Shown: positions 5,097 to 57,482, counted from the stretch's first letter. The stretch: 64,000 nucleotides of DNA from a virus (IMGVR_UViG_3300022752_000048:1-64000); one strand, 5' to 3'. Notes: generated from the letters alone by a model not told the origin. Program-made: numbers and translations.

Positions 5097-5151
5097 ATAT
5101 ATATTGTCTCCGTATTAATAAAATCGTACCATGTATCAAAGAGGAAAATAC

Positions 5152-5865
5152 ATGATTTACGCTGATTTTCATGACGTATATTTTAATCTTTTGGAAGAAC
5201 TTTATAGCCGACCACAATATGTTTCTGCGCCACGGGGCCAAAAGATACACGAACTTGTCGGTAAACAGTTTGTCATTAATCCTAATCTTGGGATAAAACT
5301 GGATTGGACAAAGACTGGCCTACCAGAACGCCAACCAATCTACGATAATTACTGTAAAAAAGAACTTGATTGGTATCTAAGCGGTAATCTTAGGGCAGAT
5401 TCTGCACCCGCCAAATTCTGGCAAACAATTGCCGACGAAAATGGAATTATTACTAGCAACTATGGATACCTTACCTTGTTTGCCAAGAAGTACCCCACCA
5501 GTGGGGGGGAGTGGCTTACTGGTTATGAATTTGTGGTAAAAACTCTTAAAAAGGACAGGGATAGTCGCCAAGCAATTATGCATTACGGCGAATCAAAAAA
5601 TTTTTGGGAAGGGAATAAGGATACGCCATGTTGCGCTAATAATCAGTTTATTATTCGTAATGACGAACTAGTTTGTATTATTAATTTTCGCAGTTGGGAT
5701 ATATTCTTGGGTGTGCCATACGACATTGAATTTATGCACTATCTACAAACTAAAATTGCAGATCAATTAAACGTAAAAACCGGCACTATTATTTGTAATG
5801 CCGGTAGTTTACATCTATACGAACGAGACTTCGAGAAAGCTAAAAAGGCGCTGCGGAAAGATTAA
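5152..5865 (+). CDS. Thymidylate-synthase-family deoxypyrimidine (hydroxy)methylase
   Basis: 237 aa from the ATG at 5152, which follows GAGGAAAATAC; an in-frame ATG at 5131 lies upstream of that site and is less likely. Family landmarks are all present: KKELDWYLSGNL near residue 70, DRDSRQA (136-141), catalytic Cys in KDTPC (C160), RSWD (180-183), GVPYD (187-191) and GSLHLY (219-224, H221 and Y223). In thymidylate synthase the residue after PF/PY is an Asn that reads the uracil ring. Here it is Asp191, the substitution known from T4 dCMP hydroxymethylase. The enzyme probably makes a 5-hydroxymethyl (or methyl) dCMP or dUMP for the virus's DNA. It is the only plus-strand gene in a minus-strand tail operon, and its stop overlaps the next convergent gene by 4 bp. 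Confidence 0.85.
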   Translation: MIYADFHDVYFNLLEELYSRPQYVSAPRGQKIHELVGKQFVINPNLGIKLDWTKTGLPERQPIYDNYCKKELDWYLSGNLRADSAPAKFWQTIADENGIITSNYGYLTLFAKKYPTSGGEWLTGYEFVVKTLKKDRDSRQAIMHYGESKNFWEGNKDTPCCANNQFIIRNDELVCIINFRSWDIFLGVPYDIEFMHYLQTKIADQLNVKTGTIICNAGSLHLYERDFEKAKKALRKD

Positions 5866-46098: not shown

Positions 46099-49047
46099 AT
46101 GTCGCACTTTAAATTGTTTGATTTTGTTGACCAACATCCCGAAGAAAAACGTCCATGGAATAACCATTGGAAGAACAAAAAAATCTGTACAAATATGCAC
46201 TGCCATTCACACTTCTCATTAGATGGTGGTTCAACCGTTCAGACTATGGTTGAACGAGCTGTGGAATTGGAATACACACACTTTACTCTTTCCGAGCACG
46301 GCAACGTAAACAGCGCCGTTGCTTTGTATCGAGAGGCTGAAAAGATTAATAAGAAAGAAAAGAAAATTAAGTTGTTTCATTCTGTCGAAGCTTATATTCG
46401 TCACCCTAAAGATGAAAAATCTACCCATATTACTATCGGATTTAAAACACAGGCCGCGTTTCAAAAATATTGTGAGCTCACCCACACACTTTACGATGAA
46501 AAACACATGGAAGTCAAATGGGGTGATGTTAAACCGGTAATGACTACCGAACACTTAGAAGAACTGGCAGCTCATGGAATTGTCATAGGGACTGGCTGTA
46601 TTGGTTCATTCTTTAACTATCCTATCTATAAGCACGGTAACGTTAAAGAATCACGCGACCGCCTTGAATGGGTTATGGGTCTAGTTGGCAAAGACAACAT
46701 TTACGATGAATGGATTGTCGATGACCTTAGTAAATACTATGCGCCTGCAAAAGTTGAAGAAGGTAAAATTATTAAAGAGGCGGCGTTGGAACTTAACGAA
46801 TGCTCACCACATTTATTGCAATACGGACAAAACACTCCAAACATTGGTAAAGCTGTAAATAATGTTCGCCGCCAGTACGTTACTGGCCCACTAAACGTTA
46901 AACCTATTGTTTCGCTCGACTCCCATTATGCCCGTAAGAAAGATAAAGTAATTCAAGATTCTAAGAATTATGGTTCAGACTGGATTATGTCGAATTTTCA
47001 ACATATGCGCGGTGCAGAAGAATATGCATATGAGGCTAAAAAATACGGTGATCTAGACGATAAATTTATTGAAGAGCTAATCGATAACACCGAAGACTAT
47101 GCCGAACAGTTTAATAGTTATGAGTTTGGTCCATCAAAAGAATGGATCATGCCTAATTATGAAGACTCCAACCTAAAATGGATTGTCGACAAGATTAAAT
47201 CTGAAAAACGAATTAACTTGGAAAGTAAAGATTACGCTGAGCGCCTCAATTATGAAATTAAAGTGCTTGGCAATAATGGCGTATTTGACGGTCTAGCATA
47301 TCTAAGAACGGTTAGCGAAATTTGCGACGAGGCGGAAAAACGCAATATTTTGGTTAATACACGTGGTTCAGCTGGTGGTAGCCTTTCGTATTTTGCTGTG
47401 GGTGCATCCGTTACTGATCCAATTAAATATGATCTTCAGTTTGAACGTCATATTACTCTTGGCCGTATTAAGTCTGGATCTTTGCCAGACTGTGATTTGG
47501 ACTTTGACGTAAAAGACGAAGCCCTAAAAATGATCTACGAAATGTATCCTGACCGAGTTTTGCCCATTTCAGTAAACCAAAACCTTAAACCTCGCTCGGC
47601 AATTAAAGATGCAGAACGTTTTATTCTCGGATCTGTACGGCAGGAAACGGAAATCCTAACTAAGTCAATGCCAATTGTTCCACAAGGTAAAGACGAGACT
47701 GAATGGTTGTTTGGTTACGAAGATCATGAAACTGGTGAGCACGTCCAAGGCTATTTTGAGACTTCCCCAGAGCTTCGCACCTATGCAGAAAAGAATCCAG
47801 AAATTTGGATGATGGTAGAACAAATGTGTGGTGTTATGCGGCAAAAATCTTCACACCCGTGCGGGCTTATTATTACACCGTCCGATAGCAAGAAATGGCT
47901 GCCAGTTTGTCGCGTAGGTGGAAAGAATGGCGCACTTGTTACAGCGTGGTGCCCAAAAGATTTGGAATGGTATCGTGCAGTAAAGTTTGACGTGCTTGGT
48001 GTTAAAAAGATGCAAACAATCAAGAAAACATTCGAGCTGATTAAACAACGCCATGGAATTGATTTAAAATGGGGTGAGTTTGATCATAATGATCAAGTGT
48101 TTGAGAATATTTATCACGCAGGTAAAACCGATGCCACGTTCCAAACAAATACTTCCGGTATTCGTTCGTTGTGTGTAAGAACTAAACCAAAAAACATTGT
48201 TGATATTTCCAACCTAATTGCTTTGTATCGTCCATCTACAATTGACTGGCAGATGCATTTGCAGGCATCTGAAGAGCGACCAAGCGGATTTCACGGCAAC
48301 GCTATGGAATTTTATGTGCAATGCTCTGCCGGCAATCAGAAACCGTATTATATTCATCCCTCGCTCGAACCTATTTTTGGTTCGACGTTCGGAGTACCAT
48401 TGTTTCAAGAACAGATCCTAAAGCTTGCTCGAGAAGTCGGCGGCTATTCATTTGAAGAAGCAGAAAACCTTCGTCGCGGTATTGGTAAAAAAGATAAAAA
48501 GCTTATTAACGAAATTCTAGATGATATGGAAAAACGAATTATTGCCAAAGACTCTTCCTGGACCAAAAGCCAATTGCACGAATTGCGGGAAATGGTTATT
48601 GCATCTGCACGTTATGGATTCAATTGTGCCCATAGTACATCTTATGGAATTGTTTCTTACGCTACGGCATGGCTTAAAAATAATTATCCGTTGGAATTCT
48701 GGACGGCAGAGTTGAGCGTTGAATATGGCGATGAAGACAAACTCCGGGAATATTCACAATTAATTTCTGATAAACTACTTCAGCCATCCGTCCTGCATTC
48801 CGACACTACAGACTTTGTCATTGAAGGAGGCAAGATTCGCGTCCCCTTATGTGTTTTAAAGGGAGTTGGAGAAGAAGCTGCAAAAGCGGTCAAAAAACTC
48901 ATGCATAATAGTTTAGAGGAGATCGGTTTAACCAAAAAGCCACAAGTGGTCAAAAACCCGAAAGAATCCACTAAACGTGCAAAAGTACTTAGTGACCAAA
49001 AACCGGATGATAATTTGCTGTCGCTCAGGCAAGGGCAGGAAACCTAA
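46099..49047 (+). CDS. DnaE-type DNA polymerase III alpha, catalytic part (C-terminal OB region absent)
   Basis: 982 aa. PHP domain first (TNMHCHSHFSLDGGST at ~31-46; LSEHGNV at ~73). The C-family polymerase core follows: RGSAGGSLSYFAVGASVTDP, LPDCDLDFD with D464 and D466 in the places of E. coli DnaE D401 and D403, and IKDAERFILG supplying the third Asp. Then SSHPCGLIITP, KFDVLGVKKMQT, GVPLFQEQILKLA, LRRGIGKK, and the thumb/finger motif FNCAHSTSYGIVSYATAWLK. The chain reaches LKGVGEEAAKAVKKLM, the first helix-hairpin-helix element, then ends in a Lys-rich tail without the second HhH, OB-fold or clamp-binding tail. Those missing parts resemble the product at 61636-62439. It should replicate the viral genome. 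The two small genes ahead are coupled to it. Confidence 0.9.
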   Translation: MSHFKLFDFVDQHPEEKRPWNNHWKNKKICTNMHCHSHFSLDGGSTVQTMVERAVELEYTHFTLSEHGNVNSAVALYREAEKINKKEKKIKLFHSVEAYIRHPKDEKSTHITIGFKTQAAFQKYCELTHTLYDEKHMEVKWGDVKPVMTTEHLEELAAHGIVIGTGCIGSFFNYPIYKHGNVKESRDRLEWVMGLVGKDNIYDEWIVDDLSKYYAPAKVEEGKIIKEAALELNECSPHLLQYGQNTPNIGKAVNNVRRQYVTGPLNVKPIVSLDSHYARKKDKVIQDSKNYGSDWIMSNFQHMRGAEEYAYEAKKYGDLDDKFIEELIDNTEDYAEQFNSYEFGPSKEWIMPNYEDSNLKWIVDKIKSEKRINLESKDYAERLNYEIKVLGNNGVFDGLAYLRTVSEICDEAEKRNILVNTRGSAGGSLSYFAVGASVTDPIKYDLQFERHITLGRIKSGSLPDCDLDFDVKDEALKMIYEMYPDRVLPISVNQNLKPRSAIKDAERFILGSVRQETEILTKSMPIVPQGKDETEWLFGYEDHETGEHVQGYFETSPELRTYAEKNPEIWMMVEQMCGVMRQKSSHPCGLIITPSDSKKWLPVCRVGGKNGALVTAWCPKDLEWYRAVKFDVLGVKKMQTIKKTFELIKQRHGIDLKWGEFDHNDQVFENIYHAGKTDATFQTNTSGIRSLCVRTKPKNIVDISNLIALYRPSTIDWQMHLQASEERPSGFHGNAMEFYVQCSAGNQKPYYIHPSLEPIFGSTFGVPLFQEQILKLAREVGGYSFEEAENLRRGIGKKDKKLINEILDDMEKRIIAKDSSWTKSQLHELREMVIASARYGFNCAHSTSYGIVSYATAWLKNNYPLEFWTAELSVEYGDEDKLREYSQLISDKLLQPSVLHSDTTDFVIEGGKIRVPLCVLKGVGEEAAKAVKKLMHNSLEEIGLTKKPQVVKNPKESTKRAKVLSDQKPDDNLLSLRQGQET

Positions 49048-52290: not shown

Positions 52291-52311
52291 ATTATACACT
52301 TGGAGTCGTCT

Positions 52312-53235
52312 ATGGCAATTGATTTAAGTAAGATGACATTTGGCGCTGAGTTAGAACTGGGTGATGTTGATACAAAAATTGTTTTACCGCCCGGAAATAG
52401 ATGGTGCGATAAAGACGGATCTATCTGTAATTCCAACGGAACTGCAAACGATCCCAAAAAAATCTTCAATCGATATGGCGGCGAAATCCAAATGAAACCG
52501 GAAAACACACCGGAAGAATTGCTTCGTGCTACGAAGGAGATTTACGACCTTCTCCCTAAAAAACATTTTAACTTTACAACTAATTTACACGTTCATATTC
52601 GTATCCCCGGCCTTAAAGACGATTTAGAGGCCCTAAAGAAAATTGTCACGTATCTTCGAAAATATGATGAAGAAATCTATGAACTTATAGATCCAAACCC
52701 ATTTCCAGAGCGTCAGCTAAAGTTTTCAAATCCAGATTTTTATAATGGTGCAGTCTCAAGATGGCGTCGAAGGAATAAATCCCATAGATACCGGGTTACA
52801 GAAAAAGTTTATAAACTTATGATGAATGCCAAATCTCCACGCGAATTTTACGAGGCACACGCCCCCAAGAATCGTTTTGGACAACCTATGTGGCATGTTG
52901 TTGTTAGGGCTGGTGTTAACCTAAAACAAATATTCGAAGATACGGAAACTATTGAGTTTCGGCATTTCACGATGTCGCCAGATTTAAACAAAATGCTTTC
53001 CGCCTATAAATGGCCAAAGCTTTTGATGGAAGCTATTTTTGTTACTGGTCATACACCAAAACAAATTTTAGAAAACAATCCAGATCTGGTATTTCAAAAC
53101 TTTCATCCGTATGACCACGGGCTAGACAAAATTTTTAGGCAGACTAATGTTTATCATAACAAACGTTCAGAAGTACGAGAGAATTACAAGCGTTTAATCG
53201 AACAAGGTTTGATAAACGAACAGTCCTTATATTGA
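52312..53235 (+). CDS. Putative amidoligase enzyme
   Basis: 307 aa from the ATG at 52312, preceded by TGGAGTCGTCT. The family pattern (glutamine-synthetase-like fold, COOH-NH2 ligase) is visible: FGAELEL (10-16), YGGEIQMKP with E58, TTNLHVHIR (89-97, H93 and H95), and ETIEFRHFTMSPD with E215 and R217. Such enzymes join amino and carboxyl groups with ATP. Family members modify peptides, proteins or small molecules, and substrates are mostly unknown. The next gene (LMW phosphatase) starts 7 bp after the stop. Because the virus may make an amine-bearing DNA base (see 54388-57482), the amine could be a substrate; a host protein or cell-wall peptide is equally possible. Confidence 0.75.
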   Translation: MAIDLSKMTFGAELELGDVDTKIVLPPGNRWCDKDGSICNSNGTANDPKKIFNRYGGEIQMKPENTPEELLRATKEIYDLLPKKHFNFTTNLHVHIRIPGLKDDLEALKKIVTYLRKYDEEIYELIDPNPFPERQLKFSNPDFYNGAVSRWRRRNKSHRYRVTEKVYKLMMNAKSPREFYEAHAPKNRFGQPMWHVVVRAGVNLKQIFEDTETIEFRHFTMSPDLNKMLSAYKWPKLLMEAIFVTGHTPKQILENNPDLVFQNFHPYDHGLDKIFRQTNVYHNKRSEVRENYKRLIEQGLINEQSLY

Positions 53236-53242
53236 GGAATAT

Positions 53243-53695
53243 ATGAAAATTTTATTTATCTGTACTGGCAATAAATTCCGCAGTCCAACTGCGGAGCATA
53301 TTATGAAATGCCTAGCGCCGCATTTAGAAGTTAAATCCGCTGGAACCGCAGAAGGAGCTGATAAAAACTATTTAATGGCTAAAAAAATGCGTCGTTGTTT
53401 AGTGGAATTAGGTTATCCCGAGCCTAAAATTCGGTCGCAGCATGTTACGGATGATCTTATGAATTGGGCTGATGTAGTTTTTTATATGGCACCAATTCAT
53501 GGTAAATATTTGTTTGAAAACCATTACCCGTTTATTAATAAAACCCAAGGTTTATACAGTTGGCTTCCAGAAGAAAGTTTAAAAAGGATTGAAGACCCCG
53601 CCTTTATTAAAAATCACGAAGATGTAATGGAAATTACTAAATTAATTGAAAAAGCTGTAAAATCAATTCTGGCACAACAAGCTAAGCGTATTTAA
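53243..53695 (+). CDS. Low-molecular-weight protein tyrosine phosphatase family protein
   Basis: 150 aa, normal length for the family. P-loop CTGNKFRSPTAE (C7-x5-R13-S14) starts right after the first strand MKILFI, and the general-acid Asp is in EDPAF (D118-P119). The fold should be that of LMW-PTP; arsenate reductases share it, but the resolving Cys pair of ArsC is not obvious. It may dephosphorylate host or viral protein Tyr, or a small phosphate ester. GAGGA overlapping the amidoligase stop gives the ribosome-binding site. The pair ends at a hairpin plus T-run at 53751-53780. Confidence 0.85.
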   Translation: MKILFICTGNKFRSPTAEHIMKCLAPHLEVKSAGTAEGADKNYLMAKKMRRCLVELGYPEPKIRSQHVTDDLMNWADVVFYMAPIHGKYLFENHYPFINKTQGLYSWLPEESLKRIEDPAFIKNHEDVMEITKLIEKAVKSILAQQAKRI

Positions 53696-53886
53696 ATTTC
53701 AGAATTGCTGATTTTGTTTTTTTGACGAGAGCCTGTTGGGATAGAGGTACCCGGAAGTTTAGGAGCTTCCGGCATTTTTATTTCTGGAGCTTTAAATGTA
53801 GTTTTCTTGGAAATAGAAGATACAGTGCCGTCCAGAATTTTATACATTCTGTCTTGGACAGTTTCGGCAGGGGTGGATTTAGCCAT
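53692..53886 (-). CDS. Small Pro/Lys-rich protein, unknown
   Basis: 64 aa from the ATG at 53886 (MAKSTPAETVQDRMYKILDG), which overlaps the end of the deaminase gene by 8 bp. A TTG at 53925 in the same frame is unlikely because it would overlap the deaminase by 47 bp. One helix, then a Pro-rich basic tail (APEIKMPEAPKLPGTSIPTG). No family recognised. Last gene of the minus-strand modification/recombination operon, converging on the phosphatase gene with a 4-bp stop overlap. Confidence 0.45.
   Translation of the reverse strand: MAKSTPAETVQDRMYKILDGTVSSISKKTTFKAPEIKMPEAPKLPGTSIPTGSRQKNKISNSEI
53751..53780 (+). terminator. Probable intrinsic terminator after the phosphatase gene
   Basis: CCGGAAG-(8-base loop)-CTTCCGG (53751-53757 with 53766-53772) followed by CATTTTTATTT. 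It reads on the plus strand 55 bp beyond the phosphatase stop, and lies inside the coding part of the convergent 64-aa gene, so its sequence must satisfy both. The T-run starts two bases after the stem and is interrupted once. Confidence 0.5.
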
Positions 53887-54415
53887 TTTCTTGCATAGTT
53901 CGACTATTTCTAATAGCTTGTTCAAGTTCGGCCTCTGTTACAATCCAAGGTGGTACGCAAACCATTTTATGCTCTATTTTACCATATTGGATATTGGATA
54001 AAAAAGGCTTCATGAGTTCTTGTTCATCTTGGTGGCGATTTTCTTTAATATAACCGATACTATTGATATTTTTATCAAGTAGTTTAGACATACAAGCCAT
54101 GCAGGGCTGGATACTCACAATAAATTGATATTTATGAATATTCATTGTTTCTGTCATCTTTTCAATAAGATCTGCCTCGGCATGACGAACTAAGAATTTT
54201 TTGGCAGGATTTTTGTCGATTGCAAGTTCAGCAAGAGCCTTTGAACTTTTTTCAAAAGCAGAAATTATCTTATTAACGCCGTAGGCAACAACCGAATTTG
54301 TTGAAGGGTCTATGGCAATTGAAACTACCTGAACTAGTGGATCGCTACTTCGTTTTTTAAGAACGTCAAATAGGATCTCGGTGCTAACTACAGGATAGGT
54401 GCCGTAGACAAACAT
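53879..54415 (-). CDS. Deoxycytidylate/cytidine deaminase family protein
   Basis: 178 aa. Zinc site: VRHAEADLI (H78, E80) and QPCMACMSKLL (C105, C108), the deaminase HAE...PCxxC signature. The length and the deep loop before HAE fit the dCMP-deaminase branch. It would turn dCMP into dUMP, the substrate for a dUMP-using TS-family enzyme. A deaminase acting on another base is possible. AAGGAATTAAAGA precedes the ATG. It overlaps the kinase gene upstream by 28 bp, which suggests a shared function. Confidence 0.8.
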   Translation of the reverse strand: MFVYGTYPVVSTEILFDVLKKRSSDPLVQVVSIAIDPSTNSVVAYGVNKIISAFEKSSKALAELAIDKNPAKKFLVRHAEADLIEKMTETMNIHKYQFIVSIQPCMACMSKLLDKNINSIGYIKENRHQDEQELMKPFLSNIQYGKIEHKMVCVPPWIVTEAELEQAIRNSRTMQENG

Positions 54416-55026
54416 TCTTTAATTCCTTGCTGTAGCTTTTGCACTACTTGTTCGGGTGAATCTTCAAAATCTACTTTTACTAGAGTAACAGGGGCGCGGC
54501 ATAAATCCAAGAAATATCCTACGCACATCTTTGCTCTATCTGTAAATACCTGAACATTATTAAATGTTAAATCAGGAAGTCGTTCTTCGACAATTCCGGC
54601 ATTTTTTCTGCGGAGCGAAAGGCGTTCTCTGATTTTTTCTACTGCAAAGTCGTAATGAACTACTACAACACGAATATCTTGTTTATGGCGATATTCGTTC
54701 ACCATTTCAACCCAACGTGAGGTCGACATAACGCCATCGATAATAACTGTATCTGATAGCTCTAGAGCATCGAAAAAACCAGTTCTAACTAAGGATGGTG
54801 TGGTTATAGAATCCGTGCCAGAATTTTTATTACCAACCAAAACACAATTATCATATTGAACAATACTATATTTTTGCTCAATCGTAGCACCTCTATTTGG
54901 CATCCGCTTTTTAATGAATTTACCCATCTTAGAAATTTCTTTGCCGGCCCCCTGGCAAAAAGTGTTTCTAGTGGTAGTTTTACCTGTTGCGCCTGCGCCC
55001 ATAAGGAAAATTGCTAGCTTAGTCAT
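54388..55026 (-). CDS. P-loop nucleotide/DNA-base kinase (5-hmdU DNA kinase candidate)
   Basis: 212 aa. Walker A GAGATGKT (10-17), Walker B strand DTVIIDGVM (D98), and an Arg-rich lid (RERLSLRRKNAG, ~145-156). It is in the adenylate-kinase-like class of P-loop kinases. Thymidine hypermodification pathways use such a kinase to phosphorylate 5-hydroxymethyl-uracil in DNA before an amino acid is added. The neighbours here (transferase-like, FAD oxidase-like, deaminase) support that role, but an ordinary dNMP kinase (T4 gp1-like) cannot be excluded from sequence alone. It overlaps the zinc-ribbon gene by 8 bp. Confidence 0.7.
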   Translation of the reverse strand: MTKLAIFLMGAGATGKTTTRNTFCQGAGKEISKMGKFIKKRMPNRGATIEQKYSIVQYDNCVLVGNKNSGTDSITTPSLVRTGFFDALELSDTVIIDGVMSTSRWVEMVNEYRHKQDIRVVVVHYDFAVEKIRERLSLRRKNAGIVEERLPDLTFNNVQVFTDRAKMCVGYFLDLCRAPVTLVKVDFEDSPEQVVQKLQQGIKECLSTAPIL

Positions 55027-55393
55027 GGAAACCCTCTATGTACTCCTGATTAGTTTTATGGCATTTAACGCAAATTCTATTTCCGTGTGGCGAAAAGAAA
55101 ACAGTATTACACTTCAAACAATTTCTGTTTTTTGGCTCTGCAGATCCATGTTCCAAAAAGAACTTTTCGTCTGCCTTCCGCAGTTCTTCCATAAGCTGTT
55201 TATGCCTCTGTTTACGTCTATTTGACGTTTTTTCTCTATTCTTTTTAACTTTTTCTGTCAAATCATTCCAGCTCAAATTATGATGTTCGACATAATTTTT
55301 CATGAAAGATTCATGATTATCTGTAACAGGAACTGGAATGTTAAGAGTTTTGCAAAACACCTTTAGTGTAATTTTGATTTCATTAACAATCAT
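55019..55393 (-). CDS. Protein with C-terminal zinc ribbon
   Basis: 124 aa. The N-terminal part (residues 10-60) is helical. A long basic helix rich in Arg/Lys (KKNREKTSNRRKQRHKQ) follows, then a zinc ribbon: CLKCNTVFFSPHGNRICVKC (two CxxC pairs 14 residues apart). Such ribbons are found in DNA-binding and transcription-linked phage proteins. It lies in the middle of the modification genes, so it may be a DNA-binding helper for kinase or transferase, or a regulator. No family name. Confidence 0.55.
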   Translation of the reverse strand: MIVNEIKITLKVFCKTLNIPVPVTDNHESFMKNYVEHHNLSWNDLTEKVKKNREKTSNRRKQRHKQLMEELRKADEKFFLEHGSAEPKNRNCLKCNTVFFSPHGNRICVKCHKTNQEYIEGFHD

Positions 55394-55403
55394 TGTTTTG
55401 CCT

Positions 55404-55733
55404 TTACTCTAATTCTGCACCCATATCGACGATCCCCTCCTTTTGAAGGAGCGAAAGGGCAAATACTCTTTTAGAATCTGCAAAGTTTTTAGTTTCGTTA
55501 AACGCACTTCTAAAAGTTTGTAAAATTTCTTGTGCAGCCTTGAATTCTGGATTAGCTTCCATTTCCTTCTTAGCTTTAAGTACGTGCGCATTTTGTTCTG
55601 CAATAATCTGTTTTAGTTTATCTACATTATAAGTTTTAAGCATTTGCAATTCATCATAAGAATAGTTTTTTACAAACGCTTTTTCAATGTCACTCAAATG
55701 GCTATATTTATTTGACTTACTCTTCTTTCTCAT
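55404..55733 (-). CDS. Small helical protein, unknown
   Basis: 109 aa, almost wholly helical, basic N-terminus (MRKKSKSNKYSHLSDIEKAF) and Leu-rich end (FALSLLQKEGIVDMGAELE). No family recognised. Its ATG overlaps the stop of the pyrophosphorylase-like gene by 4 bp and the zinc-ribbon gene follows after 10 bp. Confidence 0.5.
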   Translation of the reverse strand: MRKKSKSNKYSHLSDIEKAFVKNYSYDELQMLKTYNVDKLKQIIAEQNAHVLKAKKEMEANPEFKAAQEILQTFRSAFNETKNFADSKRVFALSLLQKEGIVDMGAELE

Positions 55734-56593
55734 ACGACATCCTCCACAAAAAGTAATTGCTGGTTTTTAATATATGCAGTTTTTTCTTTTACTGAAAAAT
55801 GGTGTTGAAGAAATTTATGATCAAATCCGCATTCATCAATTAAATTCCAAAATACGTCATCTGTATAAATTTCTGGCTTTTTAAGAACTAAAAACTCATT
55901 GATATCATGTCCAACTACATAACTCCCCTTATGCAATATTTTAGGTACTTTACACAAACAACTTTCGACTTGACCAATTGGCGCATTCCACACTCTAGAT
56001 AAGTTCCAACCTAGAGCTTCCCATTCTGGAATTATGTCTTTTGTAAATTTTTGGTTAATTCCATATAGGTAGCGAAGCCCAAACACCGGCCCAGTGTTTT
56101 TATTAGGGTCAGCATTCTCGATTCCTAATCCATTAATGCGAAGGCTGTTATATCTCAGTGTTTGATCCATAAGCTCACAGGTTTTATAGCAAGCCCAGTC
56201 CCCAAAATATGGGATCGTTTTAAACAGTTCTCGTCCGCTATTAAAATCTAGAGGTTTTGTTTTGAGTGTAGTTTCGACTTTTGTCCATTTATCAAAAGCT
56301 TTTTCAAAATTTTCAATACGACGAACTTGCGGAGTTCTACCCCGTTCCATACCAAAGCGGCTGATTTTTTCAAACATTTGTGTAGGACTTTTTCCATCAG
56401 AAAGTCCACGCATAAACAAGATCATGCTTTCGATAGAATAATAATAAACGTACATAAAAATTGCGGTTTCCGGATCAAATTTTTCATGTTTAATAATTGA
56501 TTTTAGGAGAGGATAAACAGGATCAACGTCTTTGGTATGGATTAAGGCTAGGCTTGCCTTCTCGAAATCGGAAAAATTAAATAGATGTTGCAT
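55730..56593 (-). CDS. Putative alpha-glutamyl/putrescinyl thymine pyrophosphorylase-like (amino acid:DNA transferase)
   Basis: 287 aa, all-helical. A helix-hairpin-helix-like motif of the DNA-glycosylase type lies at ~121-142 (RELFKTIPYFGDWACYKTCE). Before it is a helix with MERGRTPQVRR; after it come FGLRYLYG (171-178), WN.SRVWNAP, and VESCLCKVPK...GSYVVGHDIN (209-232), resembling the E-x-LC...G...D end of the aGPT-PPlase families. These enzymes displace pyrophosphate from 5-(PPO-methyl)-dU in DNA with an amino acid such as glycine or serine. The product of the next gene upstream is a glycine-oxidase-like FAD enzyme and a P-loop kinase follows, the same set as in Pseudomonas phage M6. Assignment rests on fold pattern plus neighbours. 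Confidence 0.55.
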   Translation of the reverse strand: MQHLFNFSDFEKASLALIHTKDVDPVYPLLKSIIKHEKFDPETAIFMYVYYYSIESMILFMRGLSDGKSPTQMFEKISRFGMERGRTPQVRRIENFEKAFDKWTKVETTLKTKPLDFNSGRELFKTIPYFGDWACYKTCELMDQTLRYNSLRINGLGIENADPNKNTGPVFGLRYLYGINQKFTKDIIPEWEALGWNLSRVWNAPIGQVESCLCKVPKILHKGSYVVGHDINEFLVLKKPEIYTDDVFWNLIDECGFDHKFLQHHFSVKEKTAYIKNQQLLFVEDVV

Positions 56594-57482
56594 ACAAATA
56601 CTCTTGAACTGCGTCGGCTAGTTCTTTAATATATGTTGGTGCATGGCGTAAACCATTTGCGGACTTTGGTGTCACATACATCGAAGCACCTTCTTGAATA
56701 AACGCATGTGAATAGTCTTCCATATAAGCCGGCCTCCACCCTGTTTTAGGATCACCGGTAACTTGGATGCCTACCTTCCCATCGGTTACTTTAGAAATAT
56801 GTTCAATAATTTTTTCAATTTTATCTTTAATTTCTAGATCTTTTTGTTCTTTTTGATAAATAAAATGAGTACCTAGATAATAGGTGTCTGTAGTTGGCCT
56901 TGGATATAAATAGGCGTTAATAAAACGGCCTTCTTTAGCATTTAAACAAAACCTTGGATAACGATCAAATACTTCTCCACTTGGTTTGCATTCTACTGAC
57001 CAACCCCAACGATAATCCGTTGGTTTGTATTTGTGAAAACCATTTGCATGGATAACAAGTCGATTGGTTGGTGTTTTGTCTACGCGGCTAGAAAAGAAAA
57101 ATTCTTGAGTAAATTGTACAAATGCCTGTACATTAACATGCATTGATTGTTTATTTAAAATTTTAATATTTCCGACAGTTTCAACAAATTTTAGTTCTTT
57201 GGAATTATTATGATGCGGAATGCTTTTCTGTGTATACCCATAAGGAACAGCTTCGGAAAACAAAATAATCGGGCGACGATCTGCTTGGCCAAATGATTGC
57301 AGCCATAAGTTATAGTTAACTTCGTCTAGCTCCTCACCGGACGGATAAATACACCCAGTGCTGGCTTTCCATGCACCGGGTGAATCATTGTCTTCCCACG
57401 AAAACATAATTTTTCTATTTGTTAATTCCCAAGCAAGGAGCGAGCCAATTAATCCAAAGCCCTTAATATGTACTGTAGACAT
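56577..57482 (-). CDS. FAD-dependent oxidoreductase, DAO/glycine-oxidase-like
   Basis: 301 aa. Dinucleotide-binding start MSTVHIKGFGLIGSLLAWEL (G8-x-G10-x-x-G13) with an acidic residue ending the second strand (SWED), then ASTGCIYPSGE. A substrate domain follows, and the C-terminal FAD contact block KTGWRP...TPKSANGLRHAPTYIKELADAV matches the D-amino-acid/glycine oxidase layout, at somewhat short length. In the M6 pathway an FAD enzyme acts on a glycyl-thymine in DNA to leave an aminomethyl group; that role is proposed here. It overlaps the transferase-like gene by 17 bp, so the two are made together. Confidence 0.75.
   Translation of the reverse strand: MSTVHIKGFGLIGSLLAWELTNRKIMFSWEDNDSPGAWKASTGCIYPSGEELDEVNYNLWLQSFGQADRRPIILFSEAVPYGYTQKSIPHHNNSKELKFVETVGNIKILNKQSMHVNVQAFVQFTQEFFFSSRVDKTPTNRLVIHANGFHKYKPTDYRWGWSVECKPSGEVFDRYPRFCLNAKEGRFINAYLYPRPTTDTYYLGTHFIYQKEQKDLEIKDKIEKIIEHISKVTDGKVGIQVTGDPKTGWRPAYMEDYSHAFIQEGASMYVTPKSANGLRHAPTYIKELADAVQEYLYATSI

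Follow-up and report, generated by a model that had tools for sequence, protein, structure and literature searches.

The 64,000-nucleotide stretch of viral DNA analysed here (IMGVR_UViG_3300022752_000048:1-64000, hereafter the window) is part of an IMG/VR virus record of 79,376 bases (G000), itself a fragment, and carries on its minus strand an island of closely packed genes (53879-57482) that, judged by sequence, encodes a DNA hypermodification pathway whose chemistry we infer from relatives. The island comprises, in order, genes for a deaminase, a kinase, a zinc-ribbon-like protein, a 109-aa protein, a 287-aa protein and a flavin adenine dinucleotide (FAD) enzyme-like protein, in which neighbouring genes overlap by 4-28 nt or lie ~10 nt apart. 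On the 5' side of this chain lie a 165-aa gene and then a UvsX/RecA-like gene, and an amidoligase gene and a low-molecular-weight (LMW) phosphatase gene on the plus strand (52300-53695) converge on it. A first-pass annotation had described the interval as a probable hypermodification island with a kinase, an amino acid:DNA transferase, an FAD enzyme and a deaminase overlapping the kinase. That core reading holds, and the four assignments are backed by profile, structure and neighbourhood tests. The open reading frames (ORFs) are confirmed at the annotated minus-strand positions, neighbouring ones overlapping or touching, and the deaminase-kinase overlap is 28 nt. The genes within 53879-57482 are real, and the bounds proved too narrow, omitting the amidoligase, the LMW phosphatase and a thymidylate synthase (TS)-family gene elsewhere in the window. 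The features are as follows.

5131-5865, plus strand: TS-family protein, 244 aa, predicted dCMP 5-hydroxymethylase (PF00303, match to the T4 enzyme, Asp residue, tree)
52300-53235, plus strand: Amidoligase_2 family protein, predicted amide ligase (PF12224 family, glutamine synthetase/glutamate-cysteine ligase (GS/GCS) fold, operon context)
53243-53695, plus strand: LMW phosphatase, partner of the amidoligase (PF01451, CX5R and Asp-Pro motifs)
53692-53925, minus strand: 77-aa ORF that closes the operon on its 3' side and overlaps the end of the deaminase gene (90% conserved in relative G001)
53879-54415, minus strand: cytidine/dCMP-type deaminase, 178 aa, with HAE and PCMAC motifs (PF00383, PDB profiles)
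54388-55026, minus strand: P-loop kinase, predicted catalytic subunit of a 5-hydroxymethyl-pyrimidine DNA kinase (profile hidden Markov models (HMMs), invariant columns)
55019-55393, minus strand: 124-aa protein with a CxxC...CxxC zinc-ribbon-like end (window lineage only)
55404-55733, minus strand: 109-aa helical protein, highly conserved (window lineage only)
55730-56593, minus strand: amino acid:DNA transferase (ADDT/aGPT-PPlase2 type), 287 aa (blastp, hhalign, PHROG, motifs)
56577-57482, minus strand: FAD enzyme with D-amino-acid/glycine oxidase fold, predicted lyase (blastp, AlphaFold2 model)

We compared the window with two relatives from IMG/VR, G001 (3300010354_000053; 105 kb, a fragment) and G002 (3300020204_000007; 169 kb). 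Both carried the identical gene block in the same order, at nucleotide identities of ~83% (G001) and 75-80% (G002), and every gene tested was under purifying selection (ratio of nonsynonymous to synonymous substitution rates, dN/dS, about 0.01-0.17; about 0.02-0.16 for the island genes). Because gene order was kept in two independent relatives and dN/dS was low, we regard the ORFs of the island as real genes.

The 287-aa protein had been proposed to be an aGPT-PPlase-type enzyme, and blastp, hhalign and gene neighbourhoods all support its homology to ADDT/aGPT-PPlase2 proteins. By blastp it matched Microbacterium phage Kozie gp2 (9e-14), Rhodococcus phage Tonitrus gp6 (3e-12), and proteins of Gordonia phage CaiB and mycobacteriophage Phelemich (~1e-11), with matches ranging from 9e-14 to 8e-11; the homologues in Tonitrus, Phelemich and Kozie are annotated as aGPT-PPlase2 or as hypothetical proteins. 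Alignment against ADDT relatives with hhalign gave a probability of 98 (1e-14), PHROG 6364 was matched at 3e-8, and four phage relatives of the protein matched the Pfam ADDT family PF18724 (best 5e-27), as did M6 gp51 and PaMx11 gp46. Residues in the motifs WA..K..E, TGP..GL, QVE..LC and Y..G.DI were invariant throughout the transferase group, the window protein included. Because its own score falls below the Pfam cut-off, we call it a divergent ADDT member with predicted transfer activity. The patterns used confirmed 101 transferase loci in 2.9 million contigs; among the 79 viral loci examined, 72 carried a kinase, 68 an FAD enzyme, 68 a TET/JBP gene and two a TS gene.

Adjoining the transferase gene is that of the FAD protein, whose best blastp matches were CaiB gp5 (5e-28) and Tonitrus gp8 (2e-26); its homologues in Gordonia phages and in Tonitrus sit in the same type of operon. 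A profile search of this family against PDB by sequence gave at best a weak match (E 0.13), and structure prediction resolved the fold. The AlphaFold2 model (predicted local distance difference test, pLDDT, 86) matched D-amino acid oxidase (DAO) in Foldseek at 2.7e-13 and in a VIA comparison with Z 22, and it matched the PaMx11 gp47 Nα-glycinyl-thymidine FAD-dependent lyase (8z2o/8z79) at ~4e-10. The model thus predicts a DAO-fold enzyme like PaMx11 gp47, a lyase that would leave a 5-aminomethyl base. The first-pass annotation had cited M6 as the example of an FAD step. M6 has radical-SAM and pyridoxal phosphate (PLP) enzyme genes there, and comparison with M6 proteins turned up no FAD homologue, so it is PaMx11, with its gp47 lyase, that models this step.

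Relationships of the kinase were visible only with broad profiles: tblastn of the window kinase against named phages returned nothing, and pairwise hhalign with small seed sets did not extend beyond the P-loop. An HMM of TET-type kinases, built without the window kinase, ranked it first in the G000 proteome (E 9e-6), and within a mixed kinase set the TET-type HMM scored it at 6e-6 and M6 gp54 at 4.5e-5. With an HMM of M6-type kinases the G001 orthologue came top (3.6e-6; next protein 0.035). In a 29-sequence alignment the window kinase had all invariant columns (G10, G15, K16, G65, G70, D72 and G98), which cover the P-loop, G65, the GxD motif and the glycine of (D/E)G. It did not reach Pfam HMUDK or Ploopntkinase3, PF18748 was not among its matches, and it had none to the Pfam deoxynucleoside monophosphate (dNMP) kinase families; the PaMx11 kinase is also sub-threshold against PF18748 (E 0.002). 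According to Pfam, M6 gp54 is the P-loop part and gp55 the helical part of a 5-hydroxymethyldeoxyuridine (5-hmdU) DNA kinase. We had considered gp55 as a second transferase ('ADDT1') and ruled this out on its Pfam assignment to the kinase helical domain PF18723. The helical partner (HMUDK_hel) was found in G001 (85182-86105; PF18723 1.8e-21, 77 bits against a cut-off of 25) and G002 (79779-80705; M6 gp55 HMM 1.8e-23), in both cases adjoining terminase genes and far from the operon, in a region whose counterpart lies outside the G000 fragment. On whether the kinase belongs with plain dNMP kinases, a question raised by the first-pass annotation, profiles and motifs place it instead among the phage 5-hydroxymethyl-pyrimidine DNA kinases, whose activity it is predicted to have.

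The deaminase scored 26.4 bits against PF00383 (cut-off 25) and matched PDB profiles of a nucleoside deaminase (4.9e-6) and a dCMP deaminase (3.7e-4), matches that identify it as a genuine zinc deaminase whose role here is likely nucleotide supply. This deaminase type, the 124-aa zinc-ribbon protein (dN/dS ~0.06) and the 109-aa protein (~0.02) were found only in the window lineage, and M6- and PaMx11-type loci carry another kind of dCMP deaminase. We therefore rejected all three as general parts of the pathway. The suggestion that the zinc-ribbon and 109-aa proteins might be new pathway parts was accordingly not upheld; the extra genes that are widespread encode the LMW phosphatase and the amidoligase and lie next to, but not within, the interval originally drawn.

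The TS-family gene at 5131-5865 was the only source of hydroxymethylation that we found (PF00303 E 2e-23). Its best PDB match was T4 dCMP hydroxymethylase (2e-18), above CMP hydroxymethylase and thymidylate synthases, and its best phage matches include an Acinetobacter phage enzyme adjoining glucosyltransferases. In this family Asp at the base-recognition position selects dCMP and Asn selects dUMP. The window protein has Asp at the position of T4 D179 together with the catalytic Cys, and PDB chain 6l18, a T4 enzyme with Asn at position 179, aligns in the same column. Asp was present in the enzymes of the window and G002, and Asn in 20/20 informative TS proteins (those from transferase operons with the base-recognition column covered), M6 and PaMx11 included. 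In a tree that contained no bacterial TS, the window and G002 proteins grouped with T4-type enzymes (bootstrap 100) in an Asp-type clade apart from the Asn-type (100). TET/JBP had no match in G000 and no significant match in the G001 or G002 proteomes (G000 and G001 being fragments), and was rejected as the hydroxymethyl source of the window virus; the 169-kb G002 held a single TS family match, of the Asp type, and nothing better than E 0.007 to the TET profile. Because the predicted hydroxymethylase is T4-type, with Asp rather than Asn, and TET/JBP is lacking, the modified base is more likely 5-hydroxymethylcytosine (5hmC) than 5-hmdU, the base named in the first-pass annotation after M6; M6- and PaMx11-type operons use the Asn-type enzyme. 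We also considered whether C5-methyltransferases would point to cytosine chemistry at TET-type loci and dropped the idea, as these enzymes were over the cut-off in only 4/31 records. Separately, G002 encodes a 287-aa protein (133997-134860) that by eye resembles 2-oxoglutarate/iron oxygenases and has no Pfam match, a possible alternative oxidation source; its gene adjoins dUTPase and thymidylate-kinase-like genes.

The amidoligase gene is annotated with a TTG start, with an ATG four codons downstream. PF12224 (Amidoligase_2) was matched by 14/17 members of its family (best 3.5e-10). A PDB profile search by sequence gave no match, and structure prediction resolved a GS/GCS fold (pLDDT 93). The neighbouring phosphatase (PF01451 E 4.6e-15) has the CX5R(S/T) loop and Asp-Pro acid intact, and its catalytic C7, R13 and D118 are invariant across 11 relatives. 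It adjoins the amidoligase in 32 of the 35 loci that have both, and in loci L031, L057, L058 and L091 the pair lies between the transferase and the FAD enzyme on one strand. A search with the amidoligase only gave 46 loci, or 48 once Simon and one Vibrio phage were added, forming 38 clusters at 80% identity. The phosphatase was present in 29/38 clusters, and a transferase or HMUDK_hel gene lay within ~9 kb in 31/38, a fraction biased upward by the five sequences from transferase loci in the query alignment; transferase loci, however, are rare in the collection (the 101 given above). TET (12 clusters) and TS (17) never occurred together, as expected of alternative hydroxymethyl sources. In phage Simon and its kin the order is ADDT, FAD enzyme, amidoligase, phosphatase, kinase, helical subunit and TS, so that the pair stands where PaMx11 has its acetyltransferase; homologues of this acetyltransferase were found in just 1/48 amidoligase loci. 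The two genes lie within the hypermodification operon in many unrelated viruses, and their products look like pathway components that have so far escaped recognition in many phages; a literature search of limited scope found no description of a link between amidoligases and DNA hypermodification. Two observations concern the wider family: loci L135 and L138 carry the pair with no transferase detected within 9 kb, so the two genes may form a mobile unit by themselves, and in Vibrio phage 2.275.O (L119, 11866-12978) an amidoligase homologue lies by a QueF-like reductase, a queuosine biosynthesis protein, GTP cyclohydrolase and QueD.

From the families, folds, conserved motifs and operon co-occurrence found in these sequence and structure comparisons, a route can be proposed. 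The TS-family enzyme would make 5-hydroxymethyl-dCMP, which would enter DNA as hydroxymethyl-dCTP, and the P-loop kinase, with the helical partner seen in relatives, would phosphorylate the 5-hydroxymethyl group in DNA. ADDT would then exchange the phosphate for an amino acid, probably glycine via its amine, and the DAO-fold FAD enzyme would cleave the amino acid to leave a 5-aminomethyl base. In a last step the GS/GCS-fold amidoligase may acylate this amine with a carboxylate. The phosphatase would act alongside, and our guess is that it removes unreacted phosphate from the base or phosphate from a substrate. The deaminase would adjust dCMP/dUMP pools, as in T4. We lean towards the view that the DNA of this virus contains a hypermodified pyrimidine, most likely a cytosine, made by this full route, with the amino acid and the order of steps modelled on its relatives; such a base may protect against restriction, as had been suggested. 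A more specific version, in which 5hmC becomes 5-aminomethylcytosine through the kinase, ADDT and FAD enzyme and is then amide-capped by the amidoligase and phosphatase, as a new module common to thymine- and TET-type pathways, is a tentative proposal to which we give somewhat less than an even chance. To our knowledge, the characterised amino-acid hypermodifications (M6, ViI, phiW-14 and PaMx11) all start from 5-hmdU. If the proposal is right, the kinase/transferase/FAD chemistry would reach cytosine as well, and the DNA should contain a cytosine with a novel amino or amide group. Independently of the base, the amidoligase-phosphatase pair is a candidate for a step not recognised so far, in which the aminomethyl base is capped by an amide bond instead of being acted on by an acetyltransferase as in PaMx11; such enzymes would also add ligases for putting amide-linked groups onto DNA bases.

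Several points weigh against this interpretation. The window ADDT scores 14.2 bits (E 0.036) against PF18724, where the cut-off is 26.2, and the amidoligase 19.3 bits against PF12224 (cut-off 22); the amidoligase pair is on the strand opposite to the island; 50 kb separate the island from the TS gene, and the two are on different strands; hydroxymethyl-dCMP could be converted by the deaminase into hydroxymethyl-dUMP, which would give 5-hmdU; and, G000 being a fragment, another hydroxymethylase may lie elsewhere in the genome. The last two are the main reservations about the base. Some phage dCMP deaminases accept hydroxymethyl-dCMP, and the deaminase gene, of the dCMP/cytidine deaminase superfamily, overlaps that of the kinase, so the product of the Asp-type enzyme might be deaminated and 5-hmdU then modified in DNA as in PaMx11. 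M6 and PaMx11, relatives with this kinase and transferase, are thymidine-based (M6: PMC6449724; both with Asn in TS). Every other TS-type transferase operon, however, has a direct dUMP hydroxymethylase. T4 itself has both dCMP hydroxymethylase and dCMP deaminase and makes no hydroxymethyluracil, and on balance we consider this thymidine-based scheme unlikely. Slightly less probable again is a virus with two systems, in which the Asp-type enzyme replaces cytosine with 5hmC as in T4 and the hydroxymethylase for the substrate of the island lies in the unsequenced part: the distance of the TS gene and the size of G000 (79 kb, set against at least 169 kb for G002) would fit, yet the single TS match in G002 is of the Asp type and its TET profile results are insignificant.

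The function of individual genes can also be read differently. T4-like viruses need a hydroxymethyl-dCMP kinase, and with the window kinase below the Pfam thresholds for HMUDK and Ploopntkinase3 it might be an ordinary dNMP kinase in an island devoted to nucleotide metabolism only. We find this very improbable given the GxD and (D/E)G signature that it has in common with DNA kinases, its match to DNA-kinase profiles at E ~1e-5 to 1e-6 with none to dNMP kinase families, its operon with ADDT and FAD genes, and HMUDK_hel in relatives. For the amidoligase and phosphatase, a co-carried pair acting on the host envelope or proteins rather than in DNA modification would suit their strand in the window, the pairs at L135 and L138 and the loci with an amidoligase alone. 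Against this stand the 31/38 clusters with transferase or kinase helical genes, the pair usually being inside the operon, its position in the PaMx11 acetyltransferase slot in Simon and the homologue adjoining 7-deazaguanine DNA-modification genes in Vibrio phage 2.275.O; we rate an envelope or protein role as improbable as the two-system virus. Acylation of the 5-aminomethyl amine is the role that we prefer for the amidoligase.

Other genes of the window virus and its relatives were noted as well. G002 encodes a Mom-family protein (115262-115906, L114:15262-15906; PF25680 3e-32) that may represent a second, adenine modification, and G001 (101534-102589) and G002 (96164-97231) encode an alliinase/aminotransferase-like PLP enzyme (PF04864 9e-33) that could be a further step. 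The apparent phage replicative polymerase is a bacterial-type DNA polymerase III alpha with a PHP domain (window 46099-49047). A GroEL-like chaperonin of 536 aa, identified by eye from its translation (G000 68080-69690), is well conserved in relatives, and G001 (73747-74805) and G002 (67763-68788) carry a gene of the IMP dehydrogenase/GMP reductase family (PF00478 2.5e-71).

Among known systems, PaMx11 shares with the window an ADDT, a DAO-fold FAD enzyme, a P-loop DNA kinase and a dCMP-type deaminase. Its operon (gp46-gp51) encodes ADDT, FAD lyase, a GNAT acetyltransferase, the kinase P-loop part, the kinase helical part and a dUMP-type TS; it thus differs in having an Asn-type rather than Asp-type TS, an acetyltransferase where the window has the amidoligase and LMW phosphatase, and a helical kinase subunit within the operon rather than far from it as in the relatives of the window. 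M6, which makes 5-NedU, has homologues of ADDT (gp51) and of the 5-HMUDK kinase (gp54/gp55) but combines them with radical SAM gp53, PLP enzyme gp52 and an Asn-type TS. The closest named ADDT and FAD homologues come from actinophage operons of the ParB-TET-aGPT2-kinase-FAD type (Tonitrus and CaiB), in which TET/JBP hydroxylates bases in DNA, whereas the TET-less window virus would hydroxymethylate the nucleotide with a TS-family enzyme. Phage Simon (PQ683277) and its metagenomic kin unite ADDT, FAD enzyme, amidoligase, LMW phosphatase and kinase in one operon, and differ in an Asn-type TS from which we predict a thymidine-based modification. With T4-type systems the window virus has in common the Asp-type hydroxymethylase and a dCMP-type deaminase; where T4 glucosylates 5hmC, the window virus has the kinase, ADDT, FAD enzyme and amidoligase downstream.

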